From NCBI RefSeq assembly GCF_000003605.2, contig NW_003141996.1, forward strand, positions 1-21,964: a DNA stretch of 21,964 nucleotides, written 5' to 3'. This document shows positions 1 through 21,964 of this stretch, piece by piece. Source of the stretch: Saccoglossus kowalevskii. Its lineage: Eukaryota; Hemichordata; Enteropneusta; Harrimaniidae. Below the pieces are notes generated by a model that saw nothing but the letters and a program-made list of their open reading frames with translations, searched no databases and was not told the origin of the DNA. Position numbers and translations under genes: made by a program. Position 1 is the stretch's first letter; every line of letters starts with the position of its first letter.

Positions 1-15
1 GATTTGGCAGTAGAC
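1..15 (-). pseudogene. 5S copy 0 (edge fragment)
   Basis: Only the RNA 5' end (about 15 nt) of a copy cut by the left window edge. It carries TAGAC for TAGGC, a helix I change. Confidence 0.8.
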
Positions 16-111
16 TGAATATTCGTCGGAATTGGATGTAATTTAATACTTCGACTAGGCAACAAATCCCGGGAAAAAGTTGGTATGTACGGTGGAATAA
101 AAATGTTGATG

Positions 112-231
112 AGCGTACTGCACGTGGTATTACCAGCCGGTCTCACATCCAAGTACTAACCACGCCCGATGCAGCTTAACTTCAGTGATAGGACGAGAAC
201 GGGTGTATTCTGCAATTTTTTGGCAGTAGGC
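112..231 (-). pseudogene. 5S copy 1, family A
   Basis: Full length, about 8 changes: AGCGTACTGC end, CTCACATCC, GTGATAGG, AGAACGGG and GCAATTTTTT. The AGAACGGG change breaks helix III. Confidence 0.9.
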
Positions 232-327
232 TGAATATTCGTCGGAATTGGATGTAACTTAATACTTCGGCTAGGCAAAAAATCCCGGGAAAAAGTTAGT
301 ATGTACGGTGGAATAAAAATGATGATG

Positions 328-447
328 AGCCTAAAGCACGTGGTATTCCCAGCCGGTCTCCCATGCAAGTAATAACCACGCTCGATGCAGCTTAACTTCA
401 GTGATCGGACGAGAACTGGTGTATTTTGCAATGGCTTGGCAGTAGGC
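328..447 (-). pseudogene. 5S copy 2, family B
   Basis: Full length, 6 changes including AGCCTAAAGC, AGTAATAACC, ACGCTCG and TTTTGCAATGGCTT. The TAATAA change removes the TAG that normally closes the spurious minus frame in each monomer. Confidence 0.9.
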
Positions 448-543
448 TGAATGTTCGTCCGAATTGTATGTCGTTTAATACTTCGGCTATGCAAACAATC
501 CCGGGAAAAATTTAGTATGTACGGTGGAATAAAAATGTTGATG

Positions 544-663
544 AGCCTAATGCACGTAGTATTCCCAGCCAGTCTCCCATGCAAGTACTAACCACACCCG
601 ATGCAGCTTAACTTCAGTGATCGGACGAGAACTGGTGTATTCTGCAATGGTTTGGCAGTAGGC
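544..663 (-). rRNA. 5S-like copy 3, family C
   Basis: Full length, 4 changes: AGCCTAATGC, ACGTAGTATT, CCAGTCTCC and ACACCC. Confidence 0.88.
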
Positions 664-759
664 TGAATATTCGTCCTAATTGTATGTCATTTAATGATTC
701 GTCTAGGCAAAAAATCATGGGAAAAAGTTAGCATGTAATGTGGAATAAAAATGTTGATG

Positions 760-879
760 AGCCTACTGCACGAGGTATTCCCAGCCGGTCTCCCGTGCAA
801 GTACTAACCACGCCCGATGCGGCTTAGCTTCAGTGATCGGACGAGAACTGGTGTATTCTGCAATGGTTTGGCAGTAGGC
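760..879 (-). rRNA. 5S-like copy 4, family Z
   Basis: Full length, 4 changes: ACGAGG, CCCGTGCA and CGGCTTAGC (two). Confidence 0.88.
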
Positions 880-975
880 TGAATATTTGTCAGAATTGGA
901 TTTCAATTAATGCTTCGGCTAGGCAAAAAATCACGAGAAAAAGATAGCATGTACGGTGGAATAAAAATATTGATA

Positions 976-1095
976 AGCCTACTGCACGTGGTATTCCCAG
1001 CAGGTCTCCCATGCAAGTACTAACCACGCCCGATGCAGCTTAACTTCAGTGATCGGACGAGAACTGGTGTTATTTGCAATGATTTGGCAGTAGAC
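976..1095 (-). pseudogene. 5S copy 5
   Basis: Full length with CAGCAGGTC, a shuffled GGTGTTATTT stretch and TAGAC at the RNA 5' end; about 6 changes. Confidence 0.88.
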
Positions 1096-1190
1096 TGAAT
1101 ATTCGTCGGAATTGGATGTAATGTAATACTTCGGCTAAGCAAAAAATCCCGGGAAAAGTTAGTACGTACGGTGGTATAAAAATGTTGATG

Positions 1191-1310
1191 AGCCTAATGC
1201 ACGTGGTATTCCCAGCCGGTCTCCCATGCAAGTACTAACCACGCCAGATGCAGCTTAACTTCAGTGATCGGACGAGAACTGGTGTATTCTGCAATGGTTA
1301 GGCAGTAGGC
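1191..1310 (-). rRNA. 5S-like copy 6
   Basis: Full length, 3 changes: AGCCTAATGC, ACGCCAGATG and GGTTAGGCAG. Confidence 0.88.
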
Positions 1311-1406
1311 TGAATATTCGACCGAATTGGATGTAATTTAATACTTCGGCTAGGCAACAAATCCCGGGAAAAAGTTGGTATGTACAGTGGAATAAAAATG
1401 TTGATG

Positions 1407-1526
1407 AGCGTACTGCACGTGGTATTCCCAGCCGGTCTCACATCCAAGTACTAACCACGCCCGATGCAGCTTAACTTCAGTGATCGGACGAGAACGGGTG
1501 TATTCTGCAATGGTTTGGCAGTAGGC
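1407..1526 (-). rRNA. 5S-like copy 7, family A
   Basis: Full length, 4 changes: AGCGTACTGC, CTCACATCC (two) and AGAACGGG. Confidence 0.88.
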
Positions 1527-1622
1527 TGAATATTCGTCGGAATTGGATGTAACTTAATACTTCGGCTAGGCAAAAAATCACGGGAAAAAGATAGTATGTA
1601 TGGTGGAATAAAAATGTTGATA

Positions 1623-1742
1623 AGCTTACTGCACGTGGTATTCCGAGCAGGTCTCCCATGCAAGTACTAACCACGCCCGATACAGCTTAACTACAGTGAT
1701 CGGACGAGAACTTCTGTATTCTGGAATGGTTTGGCAGCAGGC
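1623..1742 (-). pseudogene. 5S copy 8
   Basis: Full length, about 9 changes: AGCTTACTGC, CCGAGCAGG, GATACAGC, AACTACAG, ACTTCTG, CTGGAATGG and CAGCAGGC. Near twin of copy 12. Confidence 0.9.
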
Positions 1743-1838
1743 TGAATATTCGTCGGAATTGGATGTAATTTAATTCTTCGGCTAGGCAAAAAATCCTGGG
1801 AAAAAGTTAGTATGTATGGTGGAATAAAAATGTTGATG

Positions 1839-1943
1839 AGCATACTGCAAGTGGTATTCCCAGCTGGTCTCCCATGCAAGTGCTAACCACGCCCGATACA
1901 GCTTAACTTCAGTGATCGGACGAGAACTGGTGTATTCTGCAAT
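1839..1943 (-). pseudogene. 5S copy 9, short monomer (S)
   Basis: 105 nt. RNA nt 1-15 and nearly all the upstream spacer are missing; GCAAT joins directly to an A-run at 1944. The linker to copy 10 is 13 bp and holds the CATCAGCC marker. Body markers are AGCATACTGC, CAAGTGG, AAGTGCTAACC and GATACAG. Confidence 0.92.
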
Positions 1944-1956
1944 AAAAAAGTTCATC

Positions 1957-2076
1957 AGCCTACTGCACGTGATATTCCAAGCCGGTGTCCCATGCAAGTA
2001 CTAACCACGCCCGATGCAGCTTAACTTCAGTGATCGGACGAGAACTGGTGTATTCTGCAATGGTTTGGCCGTAGGC
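1957..2076 (-). rRNA. 5S-like copy 10
   Basis: Full length, 4 changes: ACGTGATATT, CCAAGCC, GGTGTCCC and GGCCGTAGGC. Confidence 0.88.
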
Positions 2077-2230
2077 CGAATATTCGTCCGAATTGTATGT
2101 AATTTAATGCCTCGTCTAGGCAAAAAATCATGGGAAAAAGTTAGTATGTAATGTGGAATAAAAATGTTGATGAGCCTACTGCAAGTGGTATTCCCAGCCG
2201 GTCTCCCATGCAAGTACTAACCACGCCCGA
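1972..2230. repeat. Segment shared with 11985-12243
   Basis: Copies 10-11 correspond to 59-60 at a 10,013-bp offset, marked by GGTGTCCC and GGCCGTAGGCCGAA. Confidence 0.8.
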
Positions 2231-2292
2231 TGCCGCTTAACTTTAGTGATCGGACGAGAACTGGTGTATTCTGTAATGGTTTGGCAGTAGGC
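2173..2292 (-). rRNA. 5S-like copy 11
   Basis: Full length, 4 changes: CAAGTGG, GATGCCGC, CTTTAGTG and CTGTAATGG. Confidence 0.88.
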
Positions 2293-2388
2293 TGAATATT
2301 TGTCGGAATTGGATTTCAATTAATGCTTCGGCTAGGCAAAAAATCACGGGAAAAAGATAGTATGTATGGTGGAATAAAAATGTTGATA

Positions 2389-2508
2389 AGCTTACTGCAC
2401 GTGGTATTCCCAGCAGGTCTCCCATGCAAGTACTAACCACGCCCGATACAGCTTAACTACAGTGATCGGACGAGAACTGCTGTATTCTGGAATGGTTTGG
2501 CAGCAGGC
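2389..2508 (-). pseudogene. 5S copy 12
   Basis: Full length, 7 changes, nearly the same set as copy 8 (AGCTTACTGC, CAGCAGG, GATACAG, CTACAG, CTGGAATGG, CAGCAGGC). Confidence 0.9.
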
Positions 2509-2604
2509 TGAATATTCGTCGGAATTGGATGTAATTTAATACTTCGGCTAGGCAAAAAATCCTGGGAAAAAGTTAGTATGTATGGTGGAATAAAAATGTT
2601 GATG

Positions 2605-2709
2605 AGCCTACTGCAAGTGGTATTCCCAGCCGGTCTCCCATGCAAGTGCTAACCACGCCCGATACAGCTTAACTTCAGTGATCGGACGAGAACTGGTGTA
2701 TTCTGCAAT
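2605..2709 (-). pseudogene. 5S copy 13, short monomer (S)
   Basis: 105 nt with the same GCAAT/A-run junction as copy 9 and a CATCAGCC linker. Body CAAGTGG, AAGTGCTAACC, GATACAG. Confidence 0.92.
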
Positions 2710-2722
2710 AAAAAAGTTCATC

Positions 2723-2842
2723 AGCCTACTGCACGTGGTATTCCCAGTCCGTCTCCCATGCAAGTACTAACCACACCCGATGCAGCTTAACTTCAGTGAT
2801 CGGACGAGAACTGGTGTATTCCGCAATGGTTTGGCAGTAGGT
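2723..2842 (-). rRNA. 5S-like copy 14
   Basis: Full length, 5 changes: CCCAGTCCGTC, ACACCC, ATTCCGC and TAGGT at RNA nt 1. Confidence 0.88.
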
Positions 2843-2938
2843 TGGATATTGGTCGGAATTGGATGTAATTTAATACATCGGCTAGGCAAAAAATCCCGGA
2901 AAATAGTTAGTATGTACGGTGGAATAAAAATGTTGATG

Positions 2939-3058
2939 AACCTAATGCACGTAGTATTCCCAGCCGGTCTCCCATGCAAGTACTAACCACGCCCGATACA
3001 GTATAACTTCAGTGATCGGACGAGAACTGGAGTATTCTGCAATGGTTTGGCAGTAGGC
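2939..3058 (-). pseudogene. 5S copy 15
   Basis: Full length, about 7 changes: AACCTAATGC, ACGTAGTATT, GATACAGTATAAC and TGGAGTATT. CAGTATAAC falls in the A box. Confidence 0.88.
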
Positions 3059-3154
3059 TGAATATTCGTCCGAATTGCATGTAATTTAATGCTTCGTCTA
3101 GGCAAAAAATCATGGGAAAAAGTTAGTATGTAATGTGGAATACAAATGTTGATG

Positions 3155-3259
3155 AGCCTACTGCACGTGGTATTCCCAGCCGGTCTCCCGTGCAAGAACT
3201 AACCACGCCCTATGCGGCTTAACTTCAGTGATCGGACGAGAACTGGTGTATTCTGCAAT
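3155..3259 (-). pseudogene. 5S copy 16, short monomer (S)
   Basis: 105 nt, same deletion junction, CATCAGCC linker. The body is a different background from copies 9 and 13: CCCGTGCAAGAAC, CGCCCTATGCGGC. Confidence 0.92.
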
Positions 3260-3272
3260 AAAAATGTTCATC

Positions 3273-3391
3273 AGCCTCCTGCACGTGGTATTCCCAGCCG
3301 GTATCCCGTGCAAGTACTAACCAAGCCTGATGCAGCTTAACTTCAGTGATCGGACGAGAACTGGTGGTATCTGCAATGGTAGGCAGTAGGC
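3273..3391 (-). pseudogene. 5S copy 17
   Basis: 119 nt. AGCCTCCTGC, GGTATCCCG, CCAAGCCTGATG, and two small indels around GGTGGTATCTG and GGTAGGCAG. Confidence 0.88.
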
Positions 3392-3487
3392 TGAATATTC
3401 GACCGAATTGTATGTCATTTAATGCTTCGTCTAGGCAAACAATCATTGGAAAAAGTTAGCATGTAATGTGGAATAAAAATGTTGATG

Positions 3488-3607
3488 AGCCTTCTGCACG
3501 AGGTATTCCCCGCCGGTCTCTCGTGCAAGTACTAACCACGCCCGATGCGGCTTAGCTTCAGTGATCGGACGAGAACTGGTGTAATTTGCAATGGTTTGGC
3601 AGTAGAC
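3488..3607 (-). pseudogene. 5S copy 18, family Z, diverged
   Basis: Full length, about 10 changes: AGCCTTCTGC, ACGAGG, CCCCGCC, CTCTCGTG, CGGCTTAGC, GTGTAATTTGC and TAGAC. Confidence 0.88.
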
Positions 3608-3703
3608 TGAATATTCGTCCGAATTGTATGTCGTTTAATGCTTTGGCTATGCAAACAATCCCGGGAAAAATTTAGTATGTATGGTGGAATAAAAATGTTG
3701 ATG

Positions 3704-3823
3704 AGCCTAATGCACGTAGTATTCCCAGCCGGTCTCCCATGCAAGTACTAACCACACCCGATGCAGCTTAACTTCAGTGATCGGACGAGAACTGGTGTAT
3801 TCTGAAATGGTTTGGCAGTAGGC
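3704..3823 (-). rRNA. 5S-like copy 19, family C
   Basis: Full length, 4 changes: AGCCTAATGC, ACGTAGTATT, ACACCC and CTGAAATGG. Corresponds to copy 3 at a 3,160-bp offset. Confidence 0.88.
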
Positions 3824-3919
3824 TGAATATTCGTCCTAATTGTATGTTATTTAATGCTTCGTCTAGGCAAAAAATCATGGGAAAAAGTTAGCATGTAATG
3901 TGGAATAAAAATGTTGATG

Positions 3920-4039
3920 AGCCTACTGCACGAGGTATTCCCAGCCGGTCTCCTGTGCAAGTACTAACCACGCCCGATGCGGCTTAGCTTCAGTGATCGG
4001 ACGAAAACTGGTGTATTCTGCAATGGTTTGGCAGTAGGC
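3920..4039 (-). pseudogene. 5S copy 20, family Z
   Basis: Full length, 6 changes: ACGAGG, CTCCTGTG, CGGCTTAGC and GACGAAAAC. Confidence 0.88.
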
Positions 4040-4135
4040 TGAATATTTGTCAGAATTGGATTTCAATTAATGCTTCGGCTAGGCAAAAAATCACGGGAAA
4101 AAGATAGCATGTACGGTGGAATAAAAATATTGATA

Positions 4136-4253
4136 AGCCTACTGCACGTGGTATTCCCAGCAGGCCTCCCATGGAAGTACTAACCACGCCCGATGCAGCT
4201 TAACTTCAGTGATCGGACGAGAACTGGTGTATCTGAAATAGTTTGCAGTAGGC
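4136..4253 (-). pseudogene. 5S copy 21
   Basis: 118 nt. CAGCAGGCCTC, CATGGAAG, and a damaged RNA 5' region (GTATCTGAAATAGTTTGCAG). Confidence 0.88.
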
Positions 4254-4349
4254 TGAATATTTGTCGGAATTGGATGTCATTTAATGCTACGGCTAGGCAA
4301 AAAATCTTGGGTAAAAGTTAGTATGTAATGTGGAATAAAAATGTTGATG

Positions 4350-4469
4350 AGCATAATGCACGTGGTATTCCCAGCCGGTCTCCCATGCAAGTACTAACCA
4401 CGCCTGATGCAGCTTAACTTCAGTGATCGGATGAGAACTGGTGTATTCTGCAATGGTTTGGCTGTAGGC
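4350..4469 (-). rRNA. 5S-like copy 22
   Basis: Full length, 5 changes: AGCATAATGC (two), CGCCTGATG, GGATGAG and GGCTGTAGGC. Confidence 0.86.
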
Positions 4470-4565
4470 TGAATATTCGTCCGAATTGTATGTCATTTAA
4501 TTCTTCGTCTAGGCAAAAAATCATGGGAAAAAGTTGGAATGTAATGTGGAATAAAAATGTTGATG

Positions 4566-4685
4566 AGCCTACTGCACGTGGTATTCCCAGCCGGTCTTGC
4601 GTGCAAGAACTAACCACGCCCGATGCGGCTTAACTTCAGTGATCGGACGAGAACTGGTGTATTCTGCAATGGTTTAGCAGTAGGC
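4566..4685 (-). pseudogene. 5S copy 23
   Basis: Full length, 6 changes: GTCTTGCGTGC, AAGAACTAACC, GCGGCTT and TTTAGCAG. Starts the block shared with 20 kb. Confidence 0.88.
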
Positions 4686-4781
4686 TGAATATTCGTCGGA
4701 ATTGGATGTCATTTAATGCTACGGCTAGGCAAAAAATCATAGGAAAAAGTTAGTATGTAATGTGGAATAAAAATGTTGATG

Positions 4782-4901
4782 AGCCTACTGCACGTGGCAT
4801 TCCCAGCCGGTCTCCCATTCAAGTACTTACCACGATCGATGCAGCTTAACTTCAGTGATCGGACGAGAACTGGTGTGTTCTGCAATGGTTTGGCAGTAGG
4901 C
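4782..4901 (-). pseudogene. 5S copy 24, family K
   Basis: Full length, 6 changes: GGCATT, CCCATTCAAG, ACTTACC, ACGATCGATG and GTGTTCTG. Identical to copy 98. Confidence 0.9.
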
Positions 4902-4997
4902 TGAGTATTCGTCAGAATTGGATGTCGTTTAACGCTTCGGCTAGGCAAAAAATCCCGTGAAAATTTTGGTATGTACGGTGGAATAAAAATGTTGATA

Positions 4998-5117
4998 AGC
5001 CTACTGCAATTGGTATTCCCAGCCTGTCTCCCATGCAAGTACTAACCACGCCAGATGCAGCTTAACTTCAGTGATCGGACGAGAACTGGTGTATTCTGCA
5101 ATGGTTTGGCAGTAGGC
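4998..5117 (-). rRNA. 5S-like copy 25
   Basis: Full length, 4 changes: GCAATTGG (two), CCTGTC and CGCCAGATG. Identical to copy 99. Confidence 0.88.
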
Positions 5118-5215
5118 TGAATATTTTGTCAGAATTGGATGTAATTTAATACTTTCTGCTAGGCAACAAATCCCGGGAAAAAGTTGGTATGTACGGTGGA
5201 ATAAAAATGTTGATG

Positions 5216-5335
5216 AGCCTACTGCACGTGGTATTCCCAGTCGGTCTCCCATGCAAGTACTAACCACGCCCGATACAGCTTAACTTCAGTGATCGGACGA
5301 GAACTGGTGTATTCTGCAATGGGTTGGCAGTAGGC
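5216..5335 (-). rRNA. 5S-like copy 26
   Basis: Full length, 3 changes: CCAGTCGG, GATACAG and ATGGGTTGG. Its downstream spacer is intact; the spacer on its left-hand side (5118-5215) is 98 nt, with two extra bases. Confidence 0.88.
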
Positions 5336-5431
5336 TGAATATTCGTCGGAATTGGATGTCGTTTAATGCTTCGGTTAGGCAAAAAAACATGGGAAAATGT
5401 TAGTATGTAATGTGGAATAAAAATGTTGATG

Positions 5432-5767: not shown

Positions 5768-5863
5768 TGAATGTTCGTCCGAATTGTATGTCGTTTAATG
5801 CTTCGGCTATGCAAACAATCCCGGGAAAATGTTAGTATGTACGGTGGAATAAAAATGTTGATG

Positions 5864-5997
5864 AGCCTAATGCACGTAGTATTCCCAGCCGGTCTCCCAT
5901 GCAAGTACCACGCCCGATACAGTAACCACGCCGGATGCAGCTTAACTTCAGTGATCGGACGAGAACTTGTGTATTCTGCAATGGTTTGGCAGTAGGC
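5864..5997 (-). pseudogene. 5S copy 29, family C with 14-nt insertion
   Basis: 134 nt. After GCAAGTAC there is an extra CACGCCCGATACAG, a second version of the neighbouring segment. The insert carries GATACAG whereas the copy's own version reads GGATGCAG, so it looks copied from a different monomer. It widens the A box-C box distance and should disrupt both folding and TFIIIA binding. Confidence 0.9.
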
Positions 5998-6093
5998 TGA
6001 ATATTCGTCGGAATTGGATGTCATTAAATGCTTCTGCTAGGCAAAAAATCATGGGAAAAAGTTAGTATGTACGGTGGAATAAAAATGTTGATA

Positions 6094-6198
6094 AGCCTAC
6101 TGCACGTGGTATTCCCAGCAGGTCTCTCATGCTAGTACTAGCCACGCCCGATGCGGCTTAACTTCAGTGATCGGACGAGAACTGGTGTATTCTGCAAT
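6094..6198 (-). pseudogene. 5S copy 30, short monomer (S) on a D background
   Basis: 105 nt with the standard junction at GCAAT and a CATCAGCC linker. The body carries D markers CAGCAGG, CTCTCATGCTAG, ACTAGCC and GCGGC. Confidence 0.92.
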
Positions 6199-6211
6199 AC
6201 AAATGTTCATC

Positions 6212-7846: not shown

Positions 7847-7942
7847 TGGATATTCGTCGGAATTGGATGTAATTTAATACATCGGCTAGGCAAAAAATCC
7901 CGGAAAAAAGTTAGTATGTATGGTGGAATAAAAATGTTGATG

Positions 7943-8047
7943 AGCCTACTGCAAGTGGTATTCCCAGCCGGTCTCCCATGCAAGTACTAACCACGCCCGA
8001 TACAGCTTAACTTCAGTGATCGGACGAGAACTGGTGTATTCTGCAAT
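7943..8047 (-). pseudogene. 5S copy 39, short monomer (S)
   Basis: 105 nt with the standard junction and CATCAGCC linker. Apart from the deletion it has only two changes (CAAGTGG, GATACAG). Confidence 0.92.
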
Positions 8048-8612: not shown

Positions 8613-8708
8613 TGAATATTCGTCCGAATTGCATGTCATTTAATGCTTCGTCTAGGCAAAAAATCATGGGAAAAAGTTAGTATGTAATGTGGAATCAACA
8701 TGTTGATG

Positions 8709-8813
8709 AGCCTACTGCACGTGGTATTCCCAGCCGGTCTCCCGTGCAAGAACTAACCACGCCCTATGCGGCCTAACTTCAGTGATCGGACGAGAACTGG
8801 TGTATTCTGCAAT
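8709..8813 (-). pseudogene. 5S copy 43, short monomer (S)
   Basis: 105 nt with the standard junction; the linker reads CTCATCAGCC. Body CCCGTGCAAGAAC and CCCTATGCGGCC, as in copies 16, 51 and 103. Confidence 0.92.
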
Positions 8814-10243: not shown

Positions 10244-10339
10244 TGAATATTCGTCCGAATTGCATGTCATTTAATGCTTCGTCTAGGCAAAAAATCATGG
10301 GAAAAAGTTAGTATGTAATGTGGAATAAAAATGTTGATG

Positions 10340-10444
10340 AGCCTACTGCACGTGGTATTCCCAGCCGGTCTCCCGTGCAAGAACTAACCACGCCCTATGC
10401 GGCTTAACTTCAGTGATCGGACGAGAACTGGTGTATTCTGCAAT
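10340..10444 (-). pseudogene. 5S copy 51, short monomer (S)
   Basis: 105 nt with the standard junction; linker variant TTGCTCAGCC. Body CCCGTGCAAGAAC, CCCTATGCGGC. Confidence 0.92.
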
Positions 10445-13169: not shown

Positions 13170-13264
13170 TGAATATTCGTCGCAATTGGATGTCATTTAA
13201 TGCTTCGGCTAGGCAAAAAATCATGGAAAAAGTTAGTATGTACGATGGAATAAAAATGTTCATC

Positions 13265-13384
13265 AGCCTACTGCACGTGGTATTCCCAGCCAGTCTCCCA
13301 TGCAAGTACTAACCACGCCCGATGCAGCTTAACTTCAGTGATCGGACGAGAACTGGTGTGTTCTGCAATGGTTTGGCAGTAGGC
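13265..13384 (-). rRNA. 5S-like copy 65, full length with the CATCAG marker
   Basis: Full length, 2 changes (CCAGTC, GTGTTCTG). Its downstream flank reads TTCATCAGCC, otherwise seen only next to short monomers, but the spacer is complete (95 nt). It is therefore either the un-deleted ancestor of the short form or a recombinant with it. Confidence 0.88.
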
Positions 13385-13480
13385 TGAATATTTGTCAGAA
13401 TTGGATGTCGTTTAACGTTTCGGCTAGGCAAAAAATCCCAGGGAAAAGTTAGCATGTACGGTGGAATAAAAATGTTGATA

Positions 13481-13816: not shown

Positions 13817-13912
13817 TGAACATTCGTCGGAATTGGATGTAACTTAATACTTCGGCTAGGCAAAAAATCCCGGGAAAAAGTTAGTATGTACGGTGGAATA
13901 AAAATGATGATG

Positions 13913-14032
13913 AGCCTAATGCACGTGGTATTCCCAGCCGGTCTCCCATGCAAGTAATAACCACGCTCGATGCAGCTTAACTTCAGTGATCGGACGAGAA
14001 CTGGTGTATTTTGCAATGGCTTGGCAGTAGGC
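13913..14032 (-). rRNA. 5S-like copy 68, family B
   Basis: Full length, 5 changes: AGCCTAATGC, AGTAATAACC, ACGCTCG, TTTTGC and GGCTT. Confidence 0.87.
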
Positions 14033-14128
14033 TGAATGTTCGTCCGAATTGTATGTCGTTTAATGCTTCGGCTATGCAAACAATCCCGGGAAAAATTTAG
14101 TATGTACGGTGGAATAAAAATGTTGATG

Positions 14129-14248
14129 AGCCTAATGCACGTAGTATTCCCAGCCGGTCTCCCATGCAAGTACTAACCACACCCGATGCAGCTTAACTTC
14201 AGTGATCGGACGAGAACTGGTGTATTCTGCAATGGTTTGGCAGTAGGC
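14129..14248 (-). rRNA. 5S-like copy 69, family C
   Basis: Full length, 3 changes: AGCCTAATGC, ACGTAGTATT and ACACCC. Confidence 0.88.
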
Positions 14249-14344
14249 TGAATATTCGTCCTAATTGTATGTCATTTAATGCTTCGTCTAGGCAAAAAAT
14301 CATGGGAAAAAGTTAGCATGTAATGTGGAATAAAAATGTTGATG

Positions 14345-14464
14345 AGCCTACTGCACGAGGTATTCCCAGCCGGTCTCCCGTGCAAGTACTAACCACGCCC
14401 GATGCGGCTTAGCTTCAGTGATCGGACGAGAACTGGTGTATTCTGCAATGGTTTGGCAGTAGGC
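14345..14464 (-). rRNA. 5S-like copy 70, family Z
   Basis: Full length, 4 changes: ACGAGG, CCCGTGC and GCGGCTTAGC (two). First unit of a Z-A-B-C-D-E run. Confidence 0.88.
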
Positions 14465-14560
14465 TGAACATTTGTCAGAATTGGATGTAATTTAATACTT
14501 CTGCTAGGCAACAAATCCCGGGAAAAATTTGGTATGTACGGTGGAATAAAAATGTTGATG

Positions 14561-15635: not shown

Positions 15636-15755
15636 AGCCTACTGCACGTGTATTCCCAGCCGATCTCCCATGCAAGTACTAAACCATGCCCGATGCAGCT
15701 TAACTTCAGTGATCGGACGAGAACTGGTGTATTCTGCAATGGTTTGGCAGTAGGC
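15636..15755 (-). pseudogene. 5S copy 76
   Basis: 120 nt by two cancelling indels: ACGTGTATTCC (one G lost) and CTAAACCATG (one A gained). Flanked downstream by a 91-nt spacer that has lost several single bases. Confidence 0.86.
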
Positions 15756-15851
15756 TGAATATTCGTCCTAATTGTATGTCATTTAATGCTTCGTCTAGGC
15801 AAAAAATCATGGAAAAAAGTTAGCATGAAATGTGGAATAAAAATGTTGATG

Positions 15852-15971
15852 AGCCTACTGCACGAGGTATTCCCAGCCGGTCTCCCGTGCAAGTACTAAC
15901 CACGCCCGATGCGGCTTAGCTTCAGTGATCGGACGAGAACTGGTGTATTCTGCAATGGTTTGGCAGTAGGC
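15852..15971 (-). rRNA. 5S-like copy 77, family Z
   Basis: Full length, 4 changes, same set as copy 70. First unit of the second Z-A-B run. Confidence 0.88.
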
Positions 15972-16067
15972 AGAACATTTGTCAGAATTGGATGTAATTT
16001 AATACTTCTGCTAGGCAACAAATCCCGGGAAAAAGTTGGTATGTACGGTGGAATAAAAATGTTGATG

Positions 16068-16187
16068 AGCGTACTGCACGTGGTATTCCCAGCCGGTCTC
16101 ACATCCAAGTACTAACCACGCCCGATGCAGCTTAACTTCAGTGATCGGACGAGAACGGGTGTATTCTGCAATGGTTTAGCAGTAGGC
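16068..16187 (-). rRNA. 5S-like copy 78, family A
   Basis: Full length, 5 changes, same set as copy 71. Confidence 0.87.
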
Positions 16188-16283
16188 TGAATATTCGTCG
16201 GAATTGGATGTAACTTAATACTTCGGCTAGGCAAAAAATCCCGGGAAAAATTTAGTCTGTACGGTGGAATAAAAATGTTGATG

Positions 16284-16403
16284 AGACTAATGCACGTGGT
16301 ATTCCCAGCCGGTCTCCCATGCAAGTAATAACCACGCTCGATGCAGCTTAACTTCAGTGATCGGACGAGAACTGGTGTATTTTGCAATGGCTTGGCAGTA
16401 GGC
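16284..16403 (-). pseudogene. 5S copy 79, family B
   Basis: Full length, 6 changes, same set as copies 61 and 72. Confidence 0.88.
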
Positions 16404-16500
16404 TGAATGTTCGTCCGAATTGTATGTCGTTTAATGCTTCGGCTATGCAAACAATCCCGGGAAAATGTTAGTATGTACGGGTGGAATAAAAATGTTGATG

Positions 16501-16618
16501 AGCCTAATGCACGTGGTATTCCCAGCAGTCTCCCATGCTAGTACTAACCATGCCCGATGCAGATTAACTTCAGTGATCGGACGAAAACTGGTGTATCTGC
16601 AATGCTCTGGCAGTAGGC
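16501..16618 (-). pseudogene. 5S copy 80, C/D/E mosaic
   Basis: 118 nt. C-like AGCCTAATGC, D-like CAGCAGTC and CATGCTAG, then E-like CCATGCCC and CAGATT, GACGAAAAC, GTATCTGC, ATGCTCTGG. Several exchanges or small losses appear within one copy. Confidence 0.87.
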
Positions 16619-16712
16619 TGAAAATCGTCGGAATTGGTTGACATTTAATGCTACGGCTAGGCAAAAAATCATGGGAAAAAGTTAGTATGTATGGTGGAAT
16701 AAAATGTTGATG

Positions 16713-16831
16713 AGCCTATTGCACGTGGTATTCTCAGCTGGTCTCCCATACAAGTAATAACCACGTCCGTTGAGCTTAACTTCAGTGATCGGAGTAGAAC
16801 TGGTGTATTCTGCAATGGTTTGTCAGTAGGC
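16713..16831 (-). pseudogene. 5S copy 81
   Basis: 119 nt. AGCCTATTGC, TTCTCAGCTGG, CCATACAAG, AGTAATAACC, ACGTCCGTTGAGC (A box damaged), GGAGTAG, TGTCAG. Confidence 0.87.
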
Positions 16832-16927
16832 TGAAAATTTTTCGGAATTGGTTAACAATTAATGCTTCGGCTAGGCAAAAAATTCCGGGAAAAAGTTAGT
16901 ATGTACGGTGGAATAAAAATGGTGCTG

Positions 16928-17047
16928 TGCCTACTGCACGTGATATTCCCAGCCGGTCTCTCATGCAAGTACTGTCCACGCCCGATGAAGCTTAACTTCA
17001 GTGATCGGACGAGAACTGGTGTATTCTGAAATGGAGTGGCAGTAGGC
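16928..17047 (-). pseudogene. 5S copy 82
   Basis: Full length, about 9 changes: TGCCTACTGC, ACGTGATATT, CTCTCATG, ACTGTCC, GATGAAGC and TGAAATGGAGTGG. Confidence 0.87.
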
Positions 17048-17143
17048 TGAATATTCGTCGGAATTGGATGTCATTTAATGCTACGGCTAGGCAAAAAATC
17101 CAGGGAAAAAGTTGGTATATACGGTAGAATCAAAATGTTGATA

Positions 17144-17263
17144 AGCCTACTGCACGTGGTACTCCCAGCAGGTCTCCCATGCAAGTACTAACCACGCCCG
17201 ATGCAGCTTAACTTCAGTGATCGGACTAGAACTTGTGTATTCTGCATTGGTTTGGCAGTAGGC
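17144..17263 (-). rRNA. 5S-like copy 83
   Basis: Full length, 5 changes: GGTACTCCC, CAGCAGG, GGACTAG, AACTTGTG and GCATTGG. Identical to copy 84 next door. Confidence 0.88.
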
Positions 17264-17359
17264 TGAATATTCGTCGGAATTGGATGTCATTTAATGCTAC
17301 GGCTAGGCAAAAAATCCAGGGAAAAAGTTGGTATATACGGTAGAATCACAATGTTGATA

Positions 17360-17479
17360 AGCCTACTGCACGTGGTACTCCCAGCAGGTCTCCCATGCAA
17401 GTACTAACCACGCCCGATGCAGCTTAACTTCAGTGATCGGACTAGAACTTGTGTATTCTGCATTGGTTTGGCAGTAGGC
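17360..17479 (-). rRNA. 5S-like copy 84
   Basis: Full length, identical to copy 83; a fresh single-monomer duplication. Confidence 0.88.
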
Positions 17480-17575
17480 TGAATATTCGTCGGAATTGGA
17501 TGTAATTTAGGACTTCGGCTAGGCAAACAATCCCGGGAAAAAGTTAGTATGTACGGTGGAATAAACATGTTGATG

Positions 17576-17695
17576 AGCCTAATGCACGTGGTATTCCCAG
17601 CCGGTCTCCCATGCAAGTACTAACCACGCCCGATGCAGCTTAACTTCAGTGATCGGACGAGAACTGGTGTATTCTGCAATGGTTTGGCAGTAGGC
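17576..17695 (-). rRNA. 5S-like copy 85, closest to consensus
   Basis: Full length with a single change (AGCCTAATGC: RNA G114 to U opposite C6 in helix I). Its control elements are weaker. The first T-run is broken to T3 (ATAAACATG at about 17551-17559) and the GCAAACAATC run is also interrupted. The first T5 lies about 34-38 nt downstream. Confidence 0.88.
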
Positions 17696-17791
17696 TGAAT
17701 ATTCGTCGCAATTGGATGTCGTTTAACGCTTCGGCTAAGCAAAAAATCCCGGGAAAAAGTTGCTATGTACAGTGGAATCAAAATGTTGATA

Positions 17792-17911
17792 AGCCAACTG
17801 CACGTGATATTCCAAGCCGGTGTCCCATGCAAGTACTAACCATGCCCGATGCAGCTTAACTTCAGTGATCGGACGAGAACTGGTGTATTCTGCAATGGTT
17901 TGGCAGTAGGC
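17792..17911 (-). rRNA. 5S-like copy 86
   Basis: Full length, 5 changes: AGCCAACTGC, ACGTGATATT, CCAAGCC, GGTGTCCC and CCATGCCC. Confidence 0.87.
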
Positions 17912-18007
17912 TGAATATTCGTCCTAATTGTATGTCATTTAATGCTTCGTCTAGGCAAAAAATCATGGGAAAAAGTTAGCATGTAATGTGGAATAAAAAT
18001 GTTGATG

Positions 18008-18127
18008 AGCCTACTGCACGTGGTATTCCCAGCCGGTCTCCCGTGCAAGTACTAACCACGCCCGATGCGGCTTAGCTTCAGTGATCGGACGAGAACTGGT
18101 GTATTCTGCAATGGTTTGGCAGTAGGC
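18008..18127 (-). rRNA. 5S-like copy 87, family Z
   Basis: Full length, 3 changes: CCCGTGC and GCGGCTTAGC. It lacks the ACGAGG change of the other Z copies. First unit of the third Z-A-B-C-D-E run. Confidence 0.88.
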
Positions 18128-18223
18128 TGAACATTTGTCAGAATTGGATGTAATTTAATACTTCTGCTAGGCAACAAATCCCGGGAAAAAGTTGGTATGT
18201 ACGGTGGAATAAAAATGTTGATG

Positions 18224-18343
18224 AGCGTACTGCACGTGGTATTCCCAGCCGGTCTCACATCCAAGTACTAACCACGCCCGATGCAGCTTAACTTCAGTGA
18301 TCGGACGAGAACGGGTGTATTCTGCAATGGTTTAGCAGTAGGC
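18224..18343 (-). rRNA. 5S-like copy 88, family A
   Basis: Full length, 5 changes, same set as copies 71 and 78. Confidence 0.87.
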
Positions 18344-18439
18344 TGAATATTCGTCGGAATTGGATGTAACTTAATACTTCAGCTAGGCAAAAAATCCCGG
18401 GAAAAATTTAGTCTGTACGGTGGAATAAAAATGTTGATG

Positions 18440-18559
18440 AGACTAATGCACGTGGTATTCCCAGCCGGTCTCCCATGCAAGTAGTAACCACGCTCGATGC
18501 AGCTTAACTTCAGTGATCGGACGAGAACTGGTGTATTTTGCAATGGCTTGGCAGTAGGC
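18440..18559 (-). pseudogene. 5S copy 89, family B
   Basis: Full length, 6 changes; as copy 61 but AGTAGTAACC. Confidence 0.88.
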
Positions 18560-18655
18560 TGAATGTTCGTCCGAATTGTATGTCGTTTAATGCTTCGGCT
18601 ATGCAAACAATCCCGGGAAAATGTTAGTATGTACGGTGGAATAAAAATGTTGATG

Positions 18656-18775
18656 AGCCTAATGCACGTAGTATTCCCAGCCGGTCTCCCATGCAAGTAC
18701 TAACCACGCCGGATGCAGCTTAACTTCAGTGATCGGACGAGAACTTGTGTATTCTGCAATGGTTTGGCAGTAGGC
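18656..18775 (-). rRNA. 5S-like copy 90, family C
   Basis: Full length, 4 changes, same set as copy 62. Confidence 0.88.
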
Positions 18776-18871
18776 TGAATATTCGTCGGAATTGGATGTC
18801 ATTAAATGCTTCTGCTAGGCAAAAAATCATGGGAAAAAGTTAGTATGTACGGTGGAATAAAAATGTTGATA

Positions 18872-18989
18872 AGCCTACTGCACGTGGTATTCCCAGCAGT
18901 CTCTCATGCTAGTACTAACCACGCCCGATGCAGCTTACTTCATTGATCGGACGAGAACTGGTGTATTCTGAAATGTTTTGGCAGTAGGC
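18872..18989 (-). pseudogene. 5S copy 91, family D
   Basis: 118 nt; D markers plus two single-base losses (CAGCAGTCTC, GCTTACTTC). Confidence 0.87.
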
Positions 18990-19082
18990 TGAATTATTCA
19001 TCGGAATTGGATGTCATTTAATGCTTCGGCTAGCAAAAATCTCGGGAAAATGTTAGTAGTACGGTGGAATAAAAATGTGATA

Positions 19083-19199
19083 AGCTACTGCAGGTGGTAT
19101 CCTGCCGGTCTCACATGCAAGTACTAACCATGGCCGATGCAGATTAACTTCAGTGATCGGACGTGAACTGGTGTATTCTGCATTGGTTTGGCAGTAGGC
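19083..19199 (-). pseudogene. 5S copy 92, degraded
   Basis: 117 nt: AGCTACTGCAGG, GGTATCCTGCC, CTCACATG, CCATGGCC, CAGATT, GGACGTG, GCATTGG. Three bases lost in the RNA 3' region. Confidence 0.87.
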
Positions 19200-19295
19200 T
19201 GAATATTCGTCGGAATTGGATGTCATTTAATGCTACGGCTAGGCAAAAAATCATAGGAAAAAGTTAGTATGTAATGTGGAATAAAAATGTTGATG

Positions 19296-19415
19296 AGCCT
19301 ACTGCACGTGGCATTCCCAGCTAGTCTCCCATGCAAGTAGTAACCACGCCCGATGCAGTTTAACTTCAGTGATCCGACGAGAACTGGTGTATTCTTCAAT
19401 GGTTTGGCAGTAGGC
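19296..19415 (-). pseudogene. 5S copy 93
   Basis: Full length, 7 changes: GGCATT, AGCTAGTC, AGTAGTAACC, GCAGTTTAAC, GATCCGAC and TCTTCAATGG. Confidence 0.88.
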
Positions 19416-19511
19416 TGAATATTCCTCGGAATTGGATGTAATTTAATACTTCGACTAGGCAAAAAATCCCGGGAAAAAATTAGTATGTACGGTGGAATAA
19501 AATTGTTGATG

Positions 19512-19616
19512 TGCCTAATGCACGTGGTATTCCCAGCCGGTCTCCCATGCAAGTACTAACCACGCCCAATGCAGCTTAAGTTCAATGATCGGACGAGAAC
19601 TGGTGTATTCTGCAAT
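19512..19616 (-). pseudogene. 5S copy 94, short monomer (S)
   Basis: 105 nt with the standard junction and CATCAGCC linker. The body is unlike the other short copies: TGCCTAATGC, CGCCCAATG, CTTAAGTTCAATG. Confidence 0.92.
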
Positions 19617-19629
19617 AAAAAAGTTCATC

Positions 19630-19749
19630 AGCCTACTGCACGTGGTATTCCCAGCCGGTCTCCCGTGCAAGTACTAACCACACCAGATGCAGCTTAACTT
19701 CAGTGGTCGGACAAGAACTGGTGTGTTATGCAGTGGTTTTACAGCAGGC
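19630..19749 (-). pseudogene. 5S copy 95
   Basis: Full length, about 11 changes: CCCGTGC, ACACCAGATG, CAGTGGTCGGACAAG, GTGTTATGCAGTGG and TTTACAGCAGGC. Confidence 0.87.
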
Positions 19750-19845
19750 TGAATATTTGTCAGAATTGCATGTCGTTTAACGCTTCGGCAAGGCAAAAAA
19801 TCCCAGGAAAAAGTTGCTATGTACGGTGGAATCAAAATGTTGATA

Positions 19846-19965
19846 AGCCAACTGCACGTGATATTCCAAGCCGGTGTCCCATGCAAGTACTAACCACGCC
19901 CGATGCAGCTTAACTTCAGTGATCGGACGAGAACTGGTGTATTCTGAAATAGTTTTGCAGTAGGC
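19846..19965 (-). pseudogene. 5S copy 96
   Basis: Full length, 7 changes: AGCCAACTGC, ACGTGATATT, CCAAGCC, GGTGTCCC and TGAAATAGTTTTGCAG. Confidence 0.88.
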
Positions 19966-20061
19966 TGAATATTCGTCCGAATTGTATGTCATTTAATTCT
20001 TCGTCTAGGCAAAAAATCATGGGAAAAAGTTGGAATGTAATGTGGAATAAAAATGTTGATG

Positions 20062-20181
20062 AGCCTACTGCACGTGGTATTCCCAGCCGGTCTTGCGTGC
20101 AAAAACTAACCACGCCCGATGCGGCTTAACTTCAGTGATCGGACGAGAACTGGTGTACTCTGCAATGGTTTAGCAGTAGGC
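20062..20181 (-). pseudogene. 5S copy 97
   Basis: Full length, about 8 changes; as copy 23 plus GCAAAAACTAACC and GTACTCTG. Confidence 0.88.
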
Positions 20182-20277
20182 TGAATATTCGTCGGAATTG
20201 GATGTCATTTAATGCTACGGCTAGGCAAAAAATCATAGGAAAAAGTTAGTATGTAATGTGGAATAAAAATGTTGATG

Positions 20278-20397
20278 AGCCTACTGCACGTGGCATTCCC
20301 AGCCGGTCTCCCATTCAAGTACTTACCACGATCGATGCAGCTTAACTTCAGTGATCGGACGAGAACTGGTGTGTTCTGCAATGGTTTGGCAGTAGGC
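20278..20397 (-). pseudogene. 5S copy 98, family K
   Basis: Full length, identical to copy 24, 15,496 bp away. Confidence 0.9.
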
Positions 20398-20493
20398 TGA
20401 GTATTCGTCAGAATTGGATGTCGTTTAACGCTTCGGCTAGGCAAAAAATCCCGTGAAAATTTTGGTATGTACGGTGGAATAAAAATGTTGATA

Positions 20494-20613
20494 AGCCTAC
20501 TGCAATTGGTATTCCCAGCCTGTCTCCCATGCAAGTACTAACCACGCCAGATGCAGCTTAACTTCAGTGATCGGACGAGAACTGGTGTATTCTGCAATGG
20601 TTTGGCAGTAGGC
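20494..20613 (-). rRNA. 5S-like copy 99
   Basis: Full length, identical to copy 25, 15,496 bp away. Confidence 0.88.
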
Positions 20614-20709
20614 TGAATATTCGTCCGAATTGTATGTCATTTAATGCTTCGTCTAGGGAAAAAATCATGGGAAAAGGTTAGTAAGTAATGTGGAATAAAA
20701 ATGTTGATG

Positions 20710-20829
20710 AGCCTACTGCACGTGGTATTCCCAGCCGGTCTCCCATGCAAGTACTAACCATGGCCGATGCAGATTAACTTCAGTGATCGAATGAGAACTT
20801 GTGTATTCTGCATTGGTTTGACAGTAGGC
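20710..20829 (-). pseudogene. 5S copy 100
   Basis: Full length, about 8 changes: CCATGGCC, CAGATT, GATCGAATGAG, AACTTGTG, GCATTGG and TGACAG. Confidence 0.88.
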
Positions 20830-20925
20830 TGAATATTCGTCCGAATTGTATGTCATTTAATGCTTCGTCTAGGCAAAAAATCATAGGAAAAAGGTTGTAT
20901 GTATTTTGGAATAAAAATGTTGATG

Positions 20926-21045
20926 AGCCTACCGCACGTGGTATTCCCGGCCGGTCTCCCGTGCAAGAACTAACCACGCCCGATGCTGCTTAACTTCAGT
21001 GATCGGACGAGAACTGGTGTATTCTGCAATGGTTTGGCAGTAGGC
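20926..21045 (-). rRNA. 5S-like copy 101
   Basis: Full length, 5 changes: AGCCTACCGC, CCCGGCC, CCCGTGCAAGAAC and GATGCTGC. Confidence 0.87.
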
Positions 21046-21143
21046 TGAATATTCGTCGGAATTGGATGTCATTTAATGCTACGGCTAGGCAAAACAAATT
21101 GTGGGTAAAAGTTAGTATGTAATGTGGAATAAAAATGTTGATG

Positions 21144-21262
21144 AGCTACTGCACATGGTATTCCCAGCCGGTCTCCCATGCAAGTACTAACCACGCCCGA
21201 TGCAGCTTAACCTCAGTGATCGGACAAGAACTGGTGTGTTCTGCAATGGTTTGACAGTAGGC
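21144..21262 (-). pseudogene. 5S copy 102
   Basis: 119 nt. AGCTACTGC (one C lost), ACATGG, CTTAACCTC, GGACAAG, GTGTTCTG, TGACAG. Confidence 0.87.
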
Positions 21263-21358
21263 TGAATATTCGTCCGAATTGTATGTTATTTAATGCTTCG
21301 TCTAGGCAAAAAATCATGGGAAAAATTTAGTATGTAATGTGGAATAAAAATGTTGATG

Positions 21359-21463
21359 AGCCTACTGCACGTGGCATTCCCAACCGGTCTCCCGTGCAAG
21401 AACTAACCACGCCCTATGCGGCTTAACTTCAGTGATCGGACGAGAACTGGTGTATTCTGCAAT
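21359..21463 (-). pseudogene. 5S copy 103, short monomer (S)
   Basis: 105 nt with the standard junction and CATCAGCC linker. Body GGCATT, CCAACCGG, CCCGTGCAAGAAC, CCCTATGCGGC. Confidence 0.92.
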
Positions 21464-21476
21464 AAAAATGTTCATC

Positions 21477-21596
21477 AGCCTACTGGACGTGGTATTCCCA
21501 GCCAGTCTCCCATGCAAGTACTAACCAAGCCTGATGCAGCTTAACTTCAGTGATCGTACGAGAACTGGTGTATTCTGTAATGGTTTGGCAGTAGGC
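21477..21596 (-). pseudogene. 5S copy 104
   Basis: Full length, 6 changes: ACTGGACG, CCAGTC, CCAAGCCTGATG, GATCGTAC and CTGTAATGG. Upstream spacer reads ATTCGTTGGAATTGG. Confidence 0.88.
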
Positions 21597-21691
21597 TGAA
21601 TATTCGTTGGAATTGGATGTCATTTAATGCTACGGCTAGGCAAAAAATCATAGGAAAAAGTTTGTATGTAATGTGGAATAAAATGTTGATG

Positions 21692-21811
21692 AGCCTACTG
21701 CACGTGGCATTCCCAGCCGGTCTCCCATTCAAGTACTTACCACGTCCGATGCAGCTTAACTTCAGTGATCGGACGAGAACTGGTGTGTTCTGCAATGGTT
21801 TGGCAGTAGGC
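21692..21811 (-). rRNA. 5S-like copy 105, family K
   Basis: Full length, 5 changes: GGCATT, CATTCAAG, ACTTACC, ACGTCCG and GTGTTCTG. Confidence 0.87.
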
Positions 21812-21905
21812 TGAGTATTCGTCAGAATTGGATGTCGTTTAACGCTTCGGCTAGCAAAAAATCACGCGAAAAAGTTAGTATGTACGGTGGAATAAAATGT
21901 TGATG

Positions 21906-21964
21906 ATCCCACTGCATGTGGTATTCTCAGCCCGTCTCCTTTGCAAATACTAACCACGTCCAGT
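21906..21964 (-). pseudogene. 5S copy 106, family L (cut by window edge)
   Basis: RNA 3' half only, with L markers ATCCCACTGC, GCATGTGG, TTCTCAGCCCG and ACGTCCAGT; the rest lies outside. Confidence 0.85.

Follow-up and report, generated by a model that had tools for sequence, protein, structure and literature searches.

The contig NW_003141996.1 of Saccoglossus kowalevskii, analysed over its full 21,964 nucleotides (hereafter the window), is filled by a satellite derived from 5S rDNA, and we consider it highly probable that this satellite has a two-phase history. In what amounts to an addition to the preliminary description of this DNA, the satellite very likely descends from a second 5S type rather than from the 5S gene that the host uses at present, and to judge from its sequence that type was very likely working and structurally intact. 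The family is genome-wide, with an estimated ~1 Mb in the assembly, and its mutations in the window show little regard for RNA structure, for conserved sites or for the promoter boxes.

Architecture of the array in the window

The window is a complete contig within a 572-Mb assembly and the array occupies all of it. The preliminary description reported 106 head-to-tail 5S-like copies with a 216-bp period; our own count gives the same number, with every copy on the minus strand, and a wrap-around alignment yields the period, along with nine truncated 118-bp steps that the description did not contain. The alignment comprises 112 pieces, which became 108 once split pieces were merged and 106 after a 15-nt edge piece was dropped and a copy split by an internal duplication (5768-5997) was rejoined; one 58-nt fragment at the right edge of the window is included. 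Using cmscan, 101 matches to RF00001 were obtained at the gathering threshold, on the minus strand only, with E values from 1.7e-20 to 8.6e-10. Each 216-bp monomer consists of a 119-bp 5S-like part and a 97-bp spacer. The earlier description of a 22-kb satellite is right that the array is real over the whole window; since it spans the entire contig, the figure of 22 kb reflects only the contig ends. The following features are referred to below.

1..21964, minus strand: whole-contig array of 5S-derived monomers, cut by both contig ends (cmscan and wrap-around alignment)
13170..13385, minus strand: example monomer, query for the genome search, with the highest-scoring 5S copy in the window (13265-13384, 97.6 bits)
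17577..17695, minus strand: window 5S copy nearest the family consensus, 1 mismatch in 119
1743..1943, minus strand: truncated unit (118-bp step), column 133-to-16 junction
2509..2709, minus strand: truncated unit, column 133-to-16 junction
3059..3259, minus strand: truncated unit, column 133-to-16 junction
5998..6198, minus strand: truncated unit, column 133-to-16 junction
7847..8047, minus strand: truncated unit, column 133-to-16 junction
8613..8813, minus strand: truncated unit, column 133-to-16 junction
10244..10444, minus strand: truncated unit, column 133-to-16 junction
19416..19616, minus strand: truncated unit, column 133-to-16 junction
21263..21463, minus strand: truncated unit, column 133-to-16 junction
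5768..5997, minus strand: unit with a short internal duplication in the 5S part (columns 58-75 repeated)
15682..16480, minus strand: 799-bp block (~3.7 monomers), 99.25% identical to 17838-18636 (background 89.6%)
4464..5125, minus strand: 662-bp block, 99.7% identical to 19960-20621, 15.5 kb off
237..883, minus strand: 647-bp block, 99.4% identical to 13822-14468, 13.6 kb off

In the truncated units the 5S part is missing its first 15 nt, and the unit preceding each of them lacks 83 bp of spacer; the junction joins column 133 to column 16, and the consensus has ATT at both breakpoints. The pair 4464..5125 and 19960-20621 is long-range block copying, and similarity between monomers does not decay with distance inside the window (Mantel r 0.003). 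No tRNA was found in the window, and Rfam at E values up to 1 returned nothing but 5S for one 647-bp stretch. Open reading frames in the window reach 182 aa, and all six frames of the monomer consensus contain stops; the long frames are probably by-products of monomer periodicity, 216 being divisible by three.

Divergence among the copies

None of the 82 complete ungapped 5S copies in the window matches the consensus. They form 71 haplotypes and carry 1 to 15 differences each, so the heterogeneity noted earlier holds while its upper limit of 14 positions is slightly too low. Pairwise identity averages 0.896 among the 91 near-full monomers, at ~91% for the 5S parts and 88% for the spacers. Many variants are common to several and up to dozens of copies and indels are rare, so that sequencing error cannot be chiefly responsible.

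Divergence per site in the window is 0.049 in the 5S part versus 0.078 in the spacer, and the 5S part is the less diverged on all 11 contigs read. At G and C sites the difference is 2.1- to 3.3-fold. Variants above 20% frequency number none in the 5S part and 10 in the spacer, the pattern expected of founders whose genes were uniform and whose spacers were polymorphic. Because rare variants are about equally frequent in the two parts, we read the lower divergence of the 5S part as old spacer polymorphism. Weak constraint may nevertheless remain on the 5S part: in the 20 most similar duplicate pairs, none with more than 4 differences, 12 changes fall in the 5S part versus 18 in the spacer, a ratio of 0.54, though looser cuts give ratios of 0.87 to 1.06.

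The types of variants were compared with a null expectation in 816 pieces, contig C1116 (115 of 931 pieces) being left out since its inserts disturb the alignment. Among 318 distinct 5S variant types, 152 break a pair (null 150.2 ± 2.5), 103 fall at conserved positions (103.8 ± 2.5) and 96 in promoter boxes (97.0 ± 2.4), and double changes within pairs in the same pieces number 39 versus 50.5 expected. Pair breaking is slightly low when weighted by copies (1750 versus 1960 ± 144, p 0.076), with 8 versus 11.0 ± 2.0 (p 0.10) among variants above 4%. The 82 window copies fold with a mean energy of -36.6 kcal/mol, against -38.0 ± 0.35 for randomly placed changes, and the family consensus folds at -45.9 kcal/mol with 34 of 34 pairs formed. 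This structure-blind pattern, in which no clear selection for 5S function is seen, is what a satellite would show and a working cluster would not. The three promoter elements (box A, IE and box C, at the limits usual for 5S genes) are all as in the consensus in only 15 of the 112 alignment pieces; taken singly, box A is so in 55/100, IE in 71/106 and box C in 37/103. The window copies therefore lack the intact promoter in most copies that is looked for in a functional 5S rDNA cluster, and also its near-identity, which the type-1 genes described below do show.

The family, the type-1 genes and a probable second 5S type

The window family is present on at least 47 contigs. An exact 26-mer of the family has 1,235 matches in the assembly (reversed control 0), which scale to an estimated ~4,900 pieces and 0.99 Mb, or 4,600 pieces if the length is divided by 216. 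On the 11 satellite contigs read there is one common consensus, spacer included, with at most 2 sites differing and few indels. The family consists of long tandem arrays of a unit descended from 5S rDNA, and on contig C3034 it is present in both orientations. Mean monomer identity is 0.8985 within contigs and 0.8935 between them, and pairs at least 98% identical are tenfold more frequent within (1.7%) than between contigs (0.17%); the monomer tree clusters by contig, with 324 label changes versus 616 when shuffled. Outside the assembly, no relatives were found in phages and plasmids by distant blastn or in viral contigs by three exact patterns. A 19-mer match in a Parvarchaeota MAG was rejected as a relative, such a match being expected by chance in 257 Gb.

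A different 5S gene, here called type 1, was recognised by a diagnostic 26-mer that occurs 52 times on three contigs (26 + 14 + 12; reversed-pattern control 0). In the stretch read on contig C3485, 11 genes have a mean identity of 99.57%, 8 of the 11 being identical to the reference, and nine repeat units have a mean identity of 99.4%. Given this uniformity, type 1 would represent the working 5S genes of the genome; 47 of 18,217 first-look 5S candidates were scored, and a further 5S type may exist elsewhere in the assembly. The window copies are hence not the host's only 5S genes, and the preliminary call of a satellite rather than a working cluster gains support from the separate type-1 arrays together with the structure-blind mutations. 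The satellite is by estimate ~90 times more numerous than type 1 and is distinct from it: the two 5S sequences are 91.7% alike, the 97-bp spacer shares with the type-1 spacers read no more than a 10-mer (E 0.92), and the T-run that immediately follows type-1 genes is absent, a T5 being present 9 nt beyond the satellite 5S end.

Nine substitutions and one insertion separate the family consensus from type 1. Of the substitutions, eight lie in helices and none breaks a pair; three pairs (G7-C113, C18-G62 and G31-C48) are changed on both sides and so fully compensated, and two further pairs shift from U-G to C-G and from G-U to A-U. When changes were placed at random in 200,000 trials, treating sites as independent and using one structure, no pair was broken in 390 trials (0.002), at least three double changes arose at a rate of 4.5e-5, and the two together at 1e-5 (2 trials). 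Box A, IE and box C all fall within consensus columns 49-61 and 63-112, over which there is no difference from type 1. Three compensated pairs and no broken pair make it very likely that the progenitor was a working 5S gene. Type-1 states at the nine sites are found in few of 825 satellite copies (none in 767, one in 57, two in 1), which indicates that amplification began only once the differences had become fixed. Site 7 has the type-1 base in 16 of the 825 copies, more than the 0.3% background of this kind of change would give. Judging by the 5S sequences of other animals, the derived states would be those of the family's own version, type 2, and not those of type 1.

Proposed history, alternatives and known relatives

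In the first phase, the host lineage would have carried a second 5S gene type with a short 97-bp spacer, whose divergence from the main 5S gene consisted almost wholly of fold-preserving changes, with the internal promoter region left unchanged; the retention of both fold and promoter makes a working gene very likely. In the second phase, which is largely shown, the unit appears to have multiplied into thousands of copies over many contigs. Blocks roughly one to four units long are copied to near and far sites by what may be unequal exchange, gene conversion or circle reinsertion, and the copies seem to decay neutrally, no exchange with the main 5S genes being visible. The window copies would no longer act as a 5S cluster. 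The satellite is most likely bulk repeat DNA at present and is probably heterochromatic.

It is unlikely that the family is instead still working, for example mainly in the germ line in the manner of the oocyte-type 5S genes of frogs, with a few intact copies among many decayed passengers. The consensus does form all of its pairs and keep the type-1 internal promoter boxes, and 14 exact consensus copies exist in the whole assembly (reversed-pattern control 0). These are, however, dispersed over 11 contigs with no two adjoining, and the 53 copies with one mismatch yield a single adjoining pair (C404:5904 and 6120). Nor are intact copies in excess: by our own arithmetic 633 complete copies carry a mean of 5.46 changes, for which Poisson expects ~2.7 copies with none and 14.7 with one, and 1 and 4 were seen. 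No contig read has a uniform type-2 block; where C576 is less decayed, three complete copies were read, with 3, 2 and 4 changes, and the displaced T5 in place of an immediate T-run also weighs against function. Quite improbable, too, is a chance origin of the divergence from type 1 inside the satellite, without a functional second 5S type. Only nine substitutions are involved and the simulation assumes independent sites and one structure, yet the double-sided pair changes without a broken pair were matched in only 2 of 200,000 trials, and changes that arose within the satellite disrupt pairs about as often as random placement would.

Truncated copies occur inside working Tribolium arrays (PMC11202950), and the window could on that ground be taken for a decayed edge or orphaned block of an ordinary 5S array, made of mere local pseudogenes. 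The genome-wide spread contradicts this, as do the spacer unlike the type-1 spacers read and the near absence of type-1 states, leaving it a very improbable reading. The chance that assembly or sequencing artefacts account for the family is slighter still. The satellite contigs whose length was seen are short (10.8 to 27 kb), like collapsed or read-sized pieces; against this, longer contigs exist (C1639 has matches at 44.6-47.1 kb and C2140 at 30 kb), the 11 contigs share their consensus with few indels, near-identical monomers lie on different contigs and the reversed-pattern controls are empty. The two-phase history is the reading retained here.

That 5S-derived satellites are a known class, as previously stated, is borne out by Hoplias 5SHindIII and frog PcP190. 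5SHindIII of Hoplias malabaricus is a tandem satellite, probably derived from 5S rDNA, beside true 5S genes (PMC2713275; PMC5437419), with a 360-bp unit in which 95 bp resemble 5S and 265 bp resemble the true NTS (PMC2713275). The window family resembles it in being tandem, 5S-derived and coexistent with true 5S genes, and falls outside that definition with its 216-bp unit, full 119-bp 5S part and spacer unlike the true one. Clones of 5SHindIII fold weakly (~28 versus 50 kcal/mol), unlike the window consensus, though single window copies fold more weakly on average, as given above. PcP190 has a ~190-bp unit with a 120-bp 5S-like and a variable region, lies on contigs separate from 5S rDNA in the two species studied, and combines a conserved region ~70% like 5S with a hypervariable region that differs within and among species (PMC11675491). 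The window unit likewise has a full-size 5S-like region and a second region, on contigs apart from the 5S genes; its 216-bp length, its 91.7% likeness to host 5S and its single spacer consensus set it apart from PcP190 so described.

5S arrays of other animals offer a further comparison. Esox pikes have thousands of tandem ~220-bp 5S units, in some blocks of which the authors suggest that satellite formation may have begun, with uniform genes (2.5 SNPs per 100 bp versus 12.8 in spacers, none in promoter boxes; PMC5437419). The window family is similar in unit number and size, whereas its genes and boxes are full of changes. In Tribolium, truncated copies accompany a short unit (121 + 71 bp in T. 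castaneum), and genes are 99.4% similar, with T. castaneum spacers at 94.1% (PMC11202950). A short unit and truncated copies are shared by the window family, in contrast to its pairwise identities of ~91% and 88%.

The oocyte-type 5S genes of Xenopus are a second, numerous type beside a smaller main type. The window family would be comparable in this respect, but its copies appear to decay largely regardless of RNA structure. It is probably a new satellite of a known kind, with an unusually readable origin.

The transition from an essential gene held strictly uniform to a free-running satellite is usually inferred from its end products, while here uniform arrays and a decayed family stand in one genome, and the order of events, divergence that keeps structure followed by amplification and structure-blind decay, is still readable in the sequence. 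A rather unlikely extension is a dual 5S system in which type 2, once under RNA-structure selection, collapsed into a megabase satellite whose scattered intact copies are still transcribed in some tissue; if so, the satellite would be a family caught between gene and satellite. Escape from concerted evolution becomes measurable in this genome, with an internal control, and the question is raised of a former second 5S type.

Two 5S families in one assembly

The window makes up the complete contig C3310 in an assembly of 572,110,611 bases and 4,830 contigs, and throughout its length 5S-like copies follow one another head to tail, all of them on the minus strand. The Rfam 5S rRNA model (RF00001) finds 101 matches at its gathering threshold, and our own count by wrap-around alignment is 106 copies. 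This is the number in the preliminary description, whose 216-bp period also recurs as a unit composed of a 119-bp 5S part and a 97-bp spacer. Nine 118-bp steps share a single junction (column 133 of the alignment meets column 16) with ATT at either breakpoint in the consensus, and are taken as a single 98-bp deletion multiplied by copying. The junction also occurs on C2147 (12 times), C111 (three) and C3712 (two), and is absent from the lists for C1528, C2420, C2015, C3311, C1334 and C3444. An AT-rich spacer stretch resembling ATTAAAT lies 25–32 bp upstream of the 5S start (minus strand of the window) and is variable, the consensus form being found in 33 of 93 units. Its position is near that of the likely TATA element of Tribolium 5S genes (PMC11202950).

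According to the preliminary description, the window would be the functional cluster if its copies were the host's only 5S genes and mature 5S rRNA matched them. Separate genes, here type 1, were found on C3485, C2212 and C3801. RF00001 matches scored there (47, out of 18,217 first-look candidates in the assembly) reach 105–113 bits, a range above the best window copy (97.6 bits). A type-1 26-mer occurs 52 times (26, 12 and 14, respectively) and on no other contig, so the window copies are not the sole 5S genes. Type-1 repeats are mostly ~1,139 bp long on C3485 and mostly ~1,579 bp on C2212 and C3801, yet the copies compared have a common reference gene sequence; in the units printed, a T-run directly follows the gene 3′. 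One copy scores lower than its neighbors:

L061:3009-3127 (a stretch of C3801), type-1-array copy, 103.6 bits

It is 87.5% identical to the satellite consensus (type 2), against ~91% for other main-array copies, and is probably a decayed type-1-array copy.

The high heterogeneity first described for the window holds: none of its 82 complete 5S copies equals the consensus, 71 haplotypes are present, and mean identity among 91 near-full monomers is 0.896. On 11 contigs, the consensus 5S accounts for 1 of 633 complete copies. Type-1 genes are the internal control for ordinary concerted evolution, with mean identities of 0.9957 for 11 genes of C3485 (eight identical to the reference) and 0.9938 for nine whole repeat units. 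As an outside control, PMC11202950 gives 99.4% similarity for Tribolium 5S genes. Changes in the window favor the direction G/C to A/T, and C to A and G to T transversions are numerous. CpG sites change at only ~1.4–2 times the rate of other G/C sites, which argues against heavy CpG methylation.

The satellite counterpart of the type-1 26-mer occurs 1,235 times in the assembly (control, 0). Given how often it appears in 190 kb of satellite sequence, the assembly is estimated to contain ~4,900 pieces spanning 0.99 Mb, equivalent to 4,600 units of 216 bp. At least 47 contigs carry the satellite in the union of matches listed. Of another ten contigs, eight were read over their full length and two over their first 10 kb; all except C1116 are wall-to-wall satellite. 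C1116 (L051) carries two inserts, 98% identical to each other:

C1116:885-1555, insert of ~670 bp
C1116:4365-5038, insert of ~670 bp

Both occupy a common position inside a 5S part with identical flanking variants, and thus represent one insertion event, duplicated afterwards with its block. Satellite matches lie on both strands of C3034, which would be an inversion or an array junction. Less decayed sequence includes C576:5650-6640 (L062), where three complete 5S parts read carry 2–4 changes. C3149, a candidate for further less decayed sequence, has 12 of the 100 exact 69-mer matches listed.

Probable divergence from type 1 before amplification

Nine substitutions and one inserted base separate type 1 from the satellite consensus. 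Eight substitutions fall in helices and the ninth in a loop. Three pairs changed on both sides (G7-C113 to T-A, C18-G62 to T-A, G31-C48 to A-T) and two on one (U20-G60 to C-G, G26-U53 to A-U); type 1 and the consensus alike form 34 of 34 pairs. When nine changes are placed at random sites of matching base types, the probability of no broken pair is 0.002, that of at least three double changes is 4.5e-5, and that of both jointly is 1e-5 (2 of 200,000 trials). The columns of the internal promoter elements box A, IE and box C are unchanged. Type 1 is presumably the older and the satellite states derived, a direction taken from the 5S sequences of other animals.

At the nine sites, 767 of 825 copies carry no type-1 state, 57 carry one and one carries two, so the differences were fixed in the founder, with exchange with type 1 barely visible; site 7 alone exceeds background for the type-1 base (16/825). 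Across ten contigs (C1116 dropped), variants above 20% frequency number 0 at 5S sites and 10 in the spacer; the window alone has one and eight. In the window, a variant exceeds 15% at 1/119 sites of the 5S part vs. 13/97 of the spacer (p 1.6e-4). Taken together, the pair-keeping changes, unchanged boxes, fixed differences and 5S/spacer contrast point to a founder array of uniform genes and polymorphic spacers, i.e., a working second 5S type that would have diverged from type 1 with RNA pairing kept, before amplification.

Block copying and decay after amplification

The window contains 26 near-identical block pairs (302–799 bp, 97.4–99.7% identical, 0.65 to 18 kb apart) whose lengths are not integer multiples of the unit, and identity does not fall with distance (Mantel r 0.003). 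The contigs read have a common consensus that differs between them at no more than two sites. Mean monomer identity is 0.8985 within a contig vs. 0.8935 between contigs, very close pairs are tenfold more frequent within (1.7% vs. 0.17%), and the monomer tree clusters by contig (324 changes vs. 616 shuffled; minimum 10). Copying therefore proceeds in blocks, mostly inside an array, over long and short distances alike. Conversion, unequal exchange or circles may be responsible.

Among 104 window copies, broken pairs number 255 vs. 266 ± 10 under random placement, double-sided standard pairs 4 vs. 4.5 ± 2.1, and changes at Rfam-conserved positions 181 vs. 195 ± 12. Folding of the window copies is slightly less stable than under random placement of changes. 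The 5S part of the window is less diverged than the spacer (0.049 vs. 0.078). Weak remaining constraint on the 5S part may contribute; a copy-weighted pair test gives p 0.076. The lower divergence looks mostly inherited from the period before amplification, because the 318 distinct 5S variants in 816 pieces (ten contigs, C1116 dropped) follow the random expectation in pairs and stems as well as at conserved sites and in promoter boxes, with 39 double changes vs. 50.5 expected, and because the 5S-to-spacer difference ratio, 0.54 in the closest duplicates (20 pairs, 30 differences), nears 1 at looser cuts (0.87, 30 pairs; 1.06, 34 pairs). Exact consensus 5S copies (14) and one-mismatch copies (53) jointly occupy 31 contigs of the assembly; no exact copies are adjacent, one pair of one-mismatch copies is (C404), and neither class gives any sign of a preserved functional subset. 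No uniform type-2 array was found in the assembled sequence. The amplified copies accumulated changes largely regardless of RNA structure.

A satellite of known kind

The window family is a 5S-derived satellite, the class first proposed for it. It is like 5SHindIII and PcP190 in kind, yet the features tested place it in neither. The nearest transition described is that suggested in PMC5437419 for certain blocks of 5S DNA in pikes. What is special here is that type-1 and satellite 5S families stand together in one assembly, and that structure-keeping and structure-blind phases are still separable in the satellite sequence.
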